Positions 494 through 2,928 of a DNA stretch of 50,951 nt are shown here, piece after piece. The stretch is from positions 1-50,951 of the IMG/VR virus record IMGVR_UViG_3300030012_003861; one strand, 5' to 3'. Origin of the DNA: a virus. The notes below the pieces were generated by a model that did not search any database, was not told where the DNA came from, and saw only the letters and a list, made by a program, of their open reading frames with translations. The translations under genes and the position numbers were made by a program. The number at the start of each line of letters is the position of its first letter. The first letter of the stretch is position 1.

Positions 494-685
494 ATGAGCT
501 GCAAAATCTGCAAAAAATCTGAGTTAGTTTCAGCTATCAATTCTTATTGTTCAGCTCGTACTACAAATGATCCAAATCTTATTAGGTTCTCTGCACAGCT
601 TATTAACCAACTTCTGGATACAATTGAATTTGAACCAGAAGAGGATTCCGCTGCGGAAGAAAAAGCTAATGACAATCAATCTTAA
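494..685 (+). CDS. hypothetical protein, 63 aa, CxxC at N-terminus
   Basis: Small acidic protein beginning MSCKICKKSE, with a further Cys in SYCSARTT and a very acidic tail (EFEPEEDSAAEEKANDNQS). Two early cysteines and one later could bind a metal, but a full zinc-binding set is not visible. Its 3' end overlaps the endolysin start at 669 by 17 bases, which suggests translational coupling. The upstream region contains a TATATT and a short inverted repeat (CTGT...ACAG). No family recognised. Confidence 0.6.
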   Translation: MSCKICKKSELVSAINSYCSARTTNDPNLIRFSAQLINQLLDTIEFEPEEDSAAEEKANDNQS

Positions 686-1352
686 TAACGCTGCTAAATA
701 CTACAAAGAATTATCGCATCAGATTGCAGCCTGGAATTTTTTAGAGTCCAAGATTCCTGATGAGATTCTTGATGAATTTGCAGAGATCTATCGTGCTGGG
801 CCTGCAAATCCCAGCAGTAGAATTATCACTCCATTAGTTTGTCAGCAGTTGACGGGTTACTCTGCAGACAACTTTGACAATACATTCTGTGGAGATTTCA
901 ATAAACTTTTAATGGCAACCGGGTTTGATAAACACCGGGATGCCATGTGCATGTTAATTGCTAACCTTCTTCACGAAACAGGAAACTTTCGCTGGATGTC
1001 CGAAATTGCAGATGGATCTGAATATGAAATGAGAGAAGATCTTGGAAATATTTATCCAGGGGATGGGAAAAAATTTAAAGGCACTGGCGTATTAATGCTA
1101 ACCGGACGTTACAACTACAGCCGTGCAGCAGAAGAATTACATGATCCTTTAATTATTGAACGAGGTTGGGAATATACAACCAATCATTATCCCTTTAGAT
1201 CAGCCTTAACTTGGATCAAAGATAACAAGCTACTTGATATTTGTCTTACTAAAGGTTTTGATGAATGCTGTTATAGAATTAATGGAGGCTGGAGAGGATA
1301 TGATGACAGACTCAAAAAATACCAAATCGCCAAAAGAGTCTTCGAGGTTTAA
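669..1352 (+). CDS. endolysin, GH19 chitinase-like glycoside hydrolase
   Basis: 227-residue GH19-type muralytic enzyme, expected to cleave cell-wall glycan (peptidoglycan in phages) at the end of infection. Visible motifs are the catalytic-Glu block ANLLHETGNF (Glu about 103), the following ...SEIADGSEYEMREDLGN block that should supply the second acid, the signature GDGKKFKGTGVLMLTGRYNY (about 131-150), and the C-terminal INGGWRGYDDRLKKYQIAK typical of the family. No signal peptide is seen, so a holin is expected to be needed. I chose ATG 669 because it has a GGAAGAA Shine-Dalgarno and couples to the preceding gene; the open frame extends further upstream without family similarity. A small membrane gene overlaps its 3' end. 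Confidence 0.88.
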   Translation: MTINLNNAAKYYKELSHQIAAWNFLESKIPDEILDEFAEIYRAGPANPSSRIITPLVCQQLTGYSADNFDNTFCGDFNKLLMATGFDKHRDAMCMLIANLLHETGNFRWMSEIADGSEYEMREDLGNIYPGDGKKFKGTGVLMLTGRYNYSRAAEELHDPLIIERGWEYTTNHYPFRSALTWIKDNKLLDICLTKGFDECCYRINGGWRGYDDRLKKYQIAKRVFEV

Positions 1353-1584: not shown

Positions 1585-1776
1585 TCAGAAATTAGACATC
1601 ATGGAAGCAAGACCACCTGCATAGATGTCACGACGTCCTTCAACAGAACGTTGACGCTGCTGGCGTTTTTTGGATGCTTCTAGCTTGTTAAGAAGTTCTT
1701 GGAAGGTTTTAAGATCGACTTGAGCGTCACCTCTTTTGCCTAAACCACTATCTTTGAGACCGTCACCTGCAACCAT
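1585..1776 (-). CDS. hypothetical protein, 63 aa, basic
   Basis: Starts MVAGDGLKDSGLGKRGDAQVD. The centre is a basic helix (ELLNKLEASKKRQQRQRSVEGRR) and the C-terminus reads IYAGGLASMMSNF. A coiled-coil or nucleic-acid-binding helix is plausible. It follows the frameshifted pair at 1822-2144 on the same strand with a 45-base gap, so it is probably co-transcribed. No family recognised. Confidence 0.5.
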   Translation of the reverse strand: MVAGDGLKDSGLGKRGDAQVDLKTFQELLNKLEASKKRQQRQRSVEGRRDIYAGGLASMMSNF

Positions 1777-1821: not shown

Positions 1822-2144
1822 TTATATGTCATCATTCCAATTTACTTCTTCTTTGTATTTACGAATTGCTTCGTCAATACGTGAACTAGTTAACGCCATG
1901 TTTTTACGGCGTTCTATTTCTTCTTTTATACGTTGTTTACCACTCCGTAATGACCACAGCTGTGCAATGAACACAGCATCATCAGGAGTGATGCCTTTTA
2001 CTTTTTTAGATCAGGCTTAAGAGAAACAATTGCCTTAAGAATCAACTGAATAATACTATTTGACTTTAAAGGAGTCAAAGCAATGATTTCAGAAGCCGCT
2101 GCAACTACAATCCAAGTAATAGGACTGGAAAGAATGTCATGCAT
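1822..2144 (-). CDS. predicted -1 frameshift fusion, 107 aa: membrane N-domain plus charged C-domain
   Basis: An open frame of 59 codons begins directly at the slippery site (VKGITPDDAVFIAQLW ... EEVNWNDDI). It has coding character and strongly charged helices (RIKEEIERRKNM, RIDEAIRKYKEE). A stop lies just upstream in its own frame, and it has no ATG until residue 35, only a GTG at residue 10 without a ribosome-binding site. A -1 slip at A_AAA_AAG (2007-2001) joins it seamlessly to the 48-residue membrane protein. The fusion would display a cytoplasmic coiled-coil-like domain on a membrane anchor. The alternative is independent initiation at the GTG or at the internal ATG. Confidence 0.6.
1959..2007 (-). 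promoter_or_regulatory. programmed -1 frameshift signal: A_AAA_AAG heptamer, spacer and hairpins
   Basis: Minus-strand A_AAA_AAG (2007-2001) is in the correct phase relative to the zero frame, and the stop codon TAA is the next codon. Six bases later (1994-1976) a perfect 6-bp stem GCATCA/TGATGC closes a 7-base loop. A second stem, GCTGTG/CACAGC, spans 1977-1959. Heptamer, 5-9 base spacer and downstream stem are the three classical parts of bacterial -1 frameshift signals (as in dnaX and IS elements). Confidence 0.6.
1998..2144 (-). CDS. 48-aa small membrane protein (zero-frame product upstream of a -1 frameshift site)
   Basis: Begins MHDILSSPITWIVVAAASEIIALTP and continues with an amphipathic helix (SIIQLILKAIVSLKPDLKK). 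The hydrophobic WIVVAAASEIIAL segment is a likely membrane span. I have the impression that similar small 'SEIIALTPLKSN' proteins occur in cyanophages but cannot confirm it. The gene ends CTA AAA AAG TAA, which is exactly a phased A_AAA_AAG slippery heptamer next to the stop codon (see the extended product). Roles could include holin-like or membrane-remodelling activity, by inference only. Confidence 0.65.
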   Translation of the reverse strand: MHDILSSPITWIVVAAASEIIALTPLKSNSIIQLILKAIVSLKPDLKK

Positions 2145-2172: not shown

Positions 2173-2928
2173 CTAACGGTCAAATTCTTTCTGATCATTT
2201 GATGGAATGAAAGATTGAAAAGGTTTTACTTTTTTTTCGTCTTTAGCTTTTAAAGTGTTTTCTTCTGTTTTAGTTTGCCAGAAATATTCTTCTGATTCGC
2301 CTAGTCGACCCCACTTAGCATTGGGATATTCGACATTAAAGTATCTTGATGAGACAAGAAAGTCGGGGGTTTGGAGTTCTTCTGGAGACAAACTAGGGTC
2401 AATAACACGGCACCGGTTGTTGGGGTACGCTGCAATTTGACCATTCTGCAATTCAATAATGTTGAACGACTTGTGTTCGTCTGGCGTCTCAGAGAACGAG
2501 ATGTCTGCTCGACTTCGATCACCGTTAAAGCTGTCAATAGTAAACAAATAATCGCCAGCAATAGACCCGTAGGTTTTGGTACGGACTTCCCAGCCTGCTG
2601 AATACGTAAGATTTTTTTCAAGTGTTGTAATGTCATGACTAAAACAATTCCAGAATTGGAGTTCCTCTATCGGAAGATCCGGCGAAGGATCTTTAGGCCC
2701 TTGCGGCGAGTCTGAATCCCAGGCAAGAAACGCCGAGATCGGTAACTTATCAAAGATCGCACCATATTCAGGTAAAAAAGTCTCGAAATAGAAACAACGG
2801 CCAGGGAGAGACTTAACAGACACCCAATAGCCAAGAATGTACTCACCATGCCCATCTCTTAAATCACGTAAATATTCTTTACGCACCCACACTTTTACAG
2901 GAGGTACGTTAGTAATGAGAGTTGCCAC
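2173..2928 (-). CDS. conserved-looking phage protein of unknown function, 251 aa
   Basis: Uses a GTG start at 2928, two bases after the stop of the preceding 51-aa gene. The protein has two parts. Residues 1-90 are beta-rich with many aromatics (GEYILGYWVSVKSLPGRCFYFETFLPEYGAIFDKLPISAFLAWD). The second half is also mixed beta and ends in a lysine-rich tail. There is no signal peptide or membrane segment. Its position beside the fibre, lysis and structural cluster suggests a virion or assembly role, but I do not recognise the family. Confidence 0.7.
   Translation of the reverse strand: MATLITNVPPVKVWVRKEYLRDLRDGHGEYILGYWVSVKSLPGRCFYFETFLPEYGAIFDKLPISAFLAWDSDSPQGPKDPSPDLPIEELQFWNCFSHDITTLEKNLTYSAGWEVRTKTYGSIAGDYLFTIDSFNGDRSRADISFSETPDEHKSFNIIELQNGQIAAYPNNRCRVIDPSLSPEELQTPDFLVSSRYFNVEYPNAKWGRLGESEEYFWQTKTEENTLKAKDEKKVKPFQSFIPSNDQKEFDR

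Follow-up and report, generated by a model that had tools for sequence, protein, structure and literature searches.

The window analysed here, meaning the whole 50,951-base stretch of a virus record related to Synechococcus phage S-EIV1, has on its minus strand a small membrane gene ending CTA AAA AAG TAA, with its last two sense codons inside a phased slippery heptamer (Table 1). Does this ending mark a programmed -1 ribosomal frameshift and, if so, what might the two products do? A sequence-only reading had proposed that it does: it described the 48-aa gene and its heptamer, a -1 frame open for 59 codons without a credible start of its own, a 6-bp stem beginning 6 nt after the heptamer, and a holin-like protein with a minor extended form, a case it did not know for this gene type. 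The gene, the phase of the heptamer and the length of the open frame held on inspection, as did the lack of a credible start: in the -1 frame no ATG, GTG or TTG comes before codon 10, a GTG (window 1974) that is already within the conserved part. By itself the heptamer says little, since the window has 49 strong heptamers (any phase, both strands) and this one, taken alone, could be put down to chance. Comparison with relatives makes it very likely that ribosomes shift at A_AAA_AAG, producing from one start the 48-aa protein and a 107-aa extended form; no translation product has been observed. That this frameshift also belongs to a membrane protein of the lysis region is a likely, slightly less secure, reading.

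Table 1. Features of the frameshift locus and its surroundings (window coordinates)
Feature	Position	Strand	Remarks
GH19-type endolysin gene, convergent	567..1352	+	phrog_181 endolysin, E 5.9e-25; the frameshift gene ends ~470 bp away
Downstream 63-aa ORF	1585..1776	-	No family match
-1 frame extension "C"	1822..2001	-	59 codons plus stop (1824-1822); predicted fusion 107 aa
RNA hairpin, candidate frameshift stimulator (predicted)	1939..1992 (54 nt)	-	Begins 8 nt after the heptamer
Zero-frame ORF "N", small membrane protein, 48 aa	1998..2144	-	Stop TAA 2000-1998; PHROG 22542 (phrog_22542, E 1.6e-20)
Slippery heptamer A_AAA_AAG	2001..2007	-	Phase X_XXY_YYZ, directly 5' of the zero-frame stop; conserved in homologues
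Upstream gene, cyanophage protein of phrog_3704	2173..2928	-	Labelled ferredoxin or PurM in records

Two neighbours deserve a comment. Homologues of the upstream gene product carry labels that vary by record (PurM, ferredoxin, phosphoribosylaminoimidazole synthetase, transcriptional regulator), while no Pfam match was found for the protein itself; the labels look like propagated errors. On the plus strand, a 42-aa ORF (about 1300-1428) with a C-terminal hydrophobic stretch and no family match overlaps the 3' end of the endolysin gene.

Conservation of the slippery site

Homologues were gathered by scans of IMG/VR, species genomes and a phage collection, and the counts below refer to 169 distinct short-type homologues. 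A phased strong heptamer followed by a -1 ORF of at least 40 aa was found in 153 of these, which fall into 93 clusters at 90% identity and 27 at 70%. The sequence-only reading had named loss of the heptamer in homologues, with the two frames separate or fused normally, as what would refute it; the heptamer is retained, and the inference of a frameshift fusion is supported. Because it is conserved in relatives, the heptamer is more than a chance occurrence, despite the 49 strong heptamers in the window. An assembly or homopolymer error was likewise rejected, since more than 150 distinct sequences share the arrangement, six cultured-phage records among them.

Most of the 153 have A_AAA_AAG (135), with 14 having G_GGA_AAG and 4 having A_AAA_AAC. 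In all 139 A-type cases the wobble base 5' of the two full codons of the heptamer is A, although the residue encoded varies over ten possibilities (GCA, GGA, GTA, CCA, ACA, TCA, CAA, GAA, CTA, and AAA); elsewhere in the same ORFs, only 13.8% of other codons have A as third base. In the G-type cases the preceding codon is CCG, giving G_GGA_AAG. With a stimulator present, C_CCA_AAG, G_GGA_AAG, and A_AAA_AAG outrank all other heptamers in E. coli for efficiency (PMC4066793), so that this family employs two of the top three; the earlier description of the extended form as minor is therefore unproven. G_GGA_AAG occurs with several tail types also seen with the A-type, from which repeated exchange of motif or tail is inferred.

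Site and tail occur together: among the 169 homologues, 156 have both, 3 the site only, 1 the tail only, and 9 neither (Fisher p = 9e-12). For this count, truncated contigs and one 39-aa tail were scored as tail-bearing, and the test is uncorrected for relatedness. The tail-less relatives without slippery codons (9 with neither, vs 3 with the site only) serve as natural controls. In L275, Ala-Lys-Lys is written GCA AAG AAA and the endolysin frame begins immediately; L262 has CCA AAG AAA in place of the heptamer. Site and tail are also both lacking in L019, L067, L068, L073, L075, L263, and L311. The exceptions are L319, where the tail is intact and the heptamer broken to A_AAG_AAG, and L021, L027, and L140, where the heptamer is intact but only 11-19 codons follow.

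The association was also approached from the other side, with one tail protein as query, so that the membrane part was not selected on. A membrane gene with a phased heptamer lay just upstream in all 68 distinct loci found, 8 of which were missed by the strict pattern and judged by eye to be plain homologues. Diversity is lower in this set (30 clusters at 90%, 2 at 70%), which has its own exception, L390, in which a TAG separates heptamer and tail (junction at locus 1995-2000). No natural in-frame fusion of membrane part and tail was found in any of the loci, all of which were inspected. A tblastn match in phage KBS-S-2A that seemed to span both parts turned out to be another frameshift case.

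The downstream hairpin and the -1 tail

The proposed 6-bp stem held only in part. It exists (-8.1 kcal/mol for the first 30 nt after the heptamer alone), but is outcompeted by the larger predicted hairpin at 1992-1939, with a folding energy of -28.4 kcal/mol (z -4.26; none of 200 shuffles was as stable). Its distance from the heptamer falls within the 5-10 nt expected of a stimulatory structure. Within the window clade this hairpin is predicted in 10 of 10 aligned sequences, with 90% of cells paired and three pairs showing compensatory change on both sides; slid controls were far lower, at 20-55% paired. The pairing is shifted in the two most diverged members. As part of the frameshift reading, it is very likely that this predicted hairpin aids the shift in the window clade. 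L251 and L252 also carry it, and strong hairpins are found in other clades (L041, L059, L105, and L107). Over 52 clusters, the downstream fold has z < -2 in 46%, vs 29-33% at control positions; a universal hairpin is thus unsupported, significant folding being confined to part of the clades. An upstream Shine-Dalgarno-like stimulator was found in just 2 of the 153 sequences, and is absent as a family feature.

The tail evolves under purifying selection as a protein. Its median dN/dS (Nei-Gojobori) is 0.10-0.16 in six of seven clusters, and 0.42 in the small L041 cluster; in the window clade it is 0.14. Values for the membrane part are similar, and the same DNA read in either of its remaining frames gives pN/pS >1. 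Between -30 and +36 nt of the site, the tail frame has no ATG in 148 of the 153 sequences and no start codon of any kind in 117. Tails are about 39-109 aa long, and most share a common helix and a C-terminal IHAPW-like motif, the latter lacking in the window clade. An AlphaFold2 model of one tail has a 32-residue helix and a proline-rich end (pLDDT 81, pTM 0.43); on this prediction the tail is a soluble, mostly helical domain, of 59 aa in the window.

The membrane part and its neighbourhood

The membrane part consists of a hydrophobic helix, a second helix, and a Lys-rich end. AlphaFold2 places helices at residues 2-6, 8-23, and 30-42 of the 48, and the model shows two helices joined by a turn (mean pLDDT 74, pTM 0.39). 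It belongs to PHROG 22542, whose 49-position profile spans the short product only, whereas Pfam and NCBIfam returned nothing for it; no holin family was matched in these two or in PHROGs. PHROG 22542 is sister to PHROG 15106 (phage P60 and relatives), neither having a known function; members of the sister family have an in-frame charged tail, but neither heptamer nor -1 domain. In the phrog_15106 branch (L167-L246) this in-frame tail (RKEDD...) stands in place of the frameshift, and the gene is often directly 5' of several endolysin types.

In 66 of 101 loci a lysozyme or M15 endolysin gene comes next downstream of the frameshift gene, usually overlapping it (median 23 nt). A lysozyme adjoins it in S-CBS1 and S-CBS3, and a GH19-type endolysin is its neighbour in KBS-S-2A. 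In the Autographiviridae S-B28 and WH11-B it is flanked by the tail-fibre region and the gene for the small terminase, which is where T7 has its holin gene 17.5. The heptamer-less sister family is found directly 5' of endolysins that differ in enzyme type. In the window clade the GH19-type endolysin is only convergent, about 470 bp away, and in the window itself it is not co-transcribed with the frameshift gene.

The properties expected of a holin are met as regards small size, a membrane helix, a basic hydrophilic end, and location in a lysis cassette; a sequence match to a named holin family is lacking. On the strength of this synteny (endolysin neighbours, and the position of T7 17.5), the gene is inferred to belong to the lysis cassette, with the evidence leaning modestly toward its being the holin of these cyanophages; hole formation and a part in lysis are themselves inferred. 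The earlier label "holin-like" is thus supported by gene order, without homology to any named holin family.

The most likely sequence of events is as follows. Once the membrane part has been translated, tRNA-Lys would re-pair on A_AAA_AAG, and a share of ribosomes would move into the -1 frame, avoiding the zero-frame stop that is found immediately or a few codons on; the outcome would be two isoforms at a fixed ratio. In the membrane part, the basic, lysine-rich end suggests a cytoplasmic C-terminus, and hence, by inference, a cytoplasmic tail. Only some of the subunits would then carry this cytoplasmic domain, which would be suited to delay or tune the triggering of oligomers; the direction of the effect is undetermined. 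The extended isoform might tune opening as lambda S107 tunes S105, but by way of a frameshift and at the C-terminus. This scheme as a whole (an N-out/C-in topology, with the extended isoform joining oligomers and tuning membrane opening) is an inference that is less likely than not. More generally, the gene probably helps to time the bursting of the host cell, an inference from synteny in which the roles of the isoforms are also inferred.

A bolder version, for which the doubts presently outweigh the support by a small margin, would have a widespread and unannotated class of frameshift-regulated cyanophage holins, in which the slip ratio would set the proportion of short holin to long, tail-bearing regulator, and thus the lysis clock, with interchangeable tails joined at the slip site.

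Many loci, L154, L023, and L083 among them, also have a conserved protein of ~80 aa with a membrane segment and a coiled coil encoded just upstream (phrog_26178 and phrog_12220, of unknown function); it is possible that this is a second lysis protein.

Alternative readings and known systems

The -1 ORF might instead be an independent gene, started on its own or translated by termination-reinitiation, and the A-run would then merely encode lysines. Annotators of S-CBS1 and S-CBS3 did draw the tail as a distinct short gene, and some GTG, TTG or ATG occurs near the junction in 36 of the 153 sequences. Against this stand the absence of any start codon near the site in the other 117 and the phased wobble base, which is kept regardless of residue; moreover, AAG AAA encodes the two lysines in the tail-less L275 and L262, and a lysine pair is missing altogether from the G_GGA_AAG variant. 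A separate gene is accordingly very unlikely. Transcriptional rather than ribosomal slippage on the A-run could also yield a fusion, and most sites do have a run of six A. Six is short for transcriptional slippage, the G_GGA_AAG of 14 sequences is not a long homopolymer, and both motifs are top-ranked for tandem tRNA slippage in E. coli (PMC4066793), leaving this explanation with very little probability as well.

The frameshift may also be real and the protein something other than a holin, such as a membrane protein of the virion or of DNA ejection, or a membrane anchor for a packaging or lysis partner, with the extended form as the active one. No holin family is matched, a small terminase is among the neighbours in podoviruses, and the second membrane/coiled-coil gene often found just upstream might be the actual holin, or a spanin; in addition, shifting at A_AAA_AAG can be very efficient when a hairpin follows, and the long form is for that reason perhaps not minor. 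Against it are the endolysin that comes next in roughly two-thirds of the loci, and the placement of the frameshift-less sister family directly before endolysins of different enzyme types. This remains a serious alternative, if one that is less likely than not. Less plausible is that the extended form is a spanin-like effector linking membranes, the short form being a by-product: a membrane helix followed by a long helix and a proline-rich tail does resemble i-spanin architecture, but the basic residues that follow the hydrophobic part point to a cytoplasmic location of the tail, the upstream gene resembles Rz-like spanins only weakly (E 0.07), and no lipoprotein partner was identified. This explanation is considered unlikely.

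Among known systems, the programmed frameshift proposed here can be compared with the tail assembly chaperones G/GT (lambda, P2 E/E', SPP1 17.5), which likewise have one start, a -1 slip near the end of the short ORF, a ratio-setting extended product, and a slip site that is kept while the proteins diverge (PMC5009743, PMC6316719, PMC3091744). G/GT, however, is a cytosolic chaperone encoded between the major tail and tape-measure genes, whereas the present gene belongs to the lysis region and its 48-aa product is a membrane protein; next to it are genes for endolysin, small terminase or small membrane proteins, so that it lacks the location expected of G/GT, and no sequence relation between the two was found. 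Bacterial A_AAA_AAG cassettes (dnaX, the IS3 family) share the heptamer class and a downstream hairpin stimulator (PMC4066793), but differ from the present family in its lack of an upstream Shine-Dalgarno-like stimulator and in its product, a membrane protein. In dual-product holins (lambda S105/S107; SPP1 24.1 and 26) there are likewise two isoforms of one small lysis-region membrane protein. The lambda pair arises from two start codons and differs at the N-terminus. The SPP1 isoforms too have two start codons and an N-terminal difference (PMC6316719). The frameshift here, unlike these, would append a whole C-terminal domain.

In the literature consulted, phage frameshifts are mostly those of tail chaperones and tail-tube proteins (PMC5009743, PMC6316719, PMC3091744, PMC10885494). 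No earlier report of a frameshift in this gene was found in the literature searched (open-access only, the main review in part). It was missed in all six cultured-phage records inspected: KBS-S-2A and WH11-B are annotated with the short product only, S-CBS1 and S-CBS3 with two separate genes, S-EIV1 with the tail only, and S-B28 with neither part. The well-known tailed-phage frameshifts serve tail or capsid proteins; this would be a second case of wide phylogenetic reach, located in the lysis region of marine and freshwater cyanophages and supported by codon-level conservation. It makes the timing of cyanophage lysis directly testable, and gives frameshift predictors a positive family outside the tail chaperones.

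A homologue of the membrane part also occurs outside the tailed phages. An ssDNA microvirus (L263; MH572431.1, Microviridae sp. SD_MC_44) has an unannotated 42-aa homologue at locus 2501-2629 (phrog_22542, E 4.5e-8), without heptamer or tail. This is a candidate lysis gene common to unrelated phage realms; a scan seeded from the microvirus returned mostly tailed phages among its matches.
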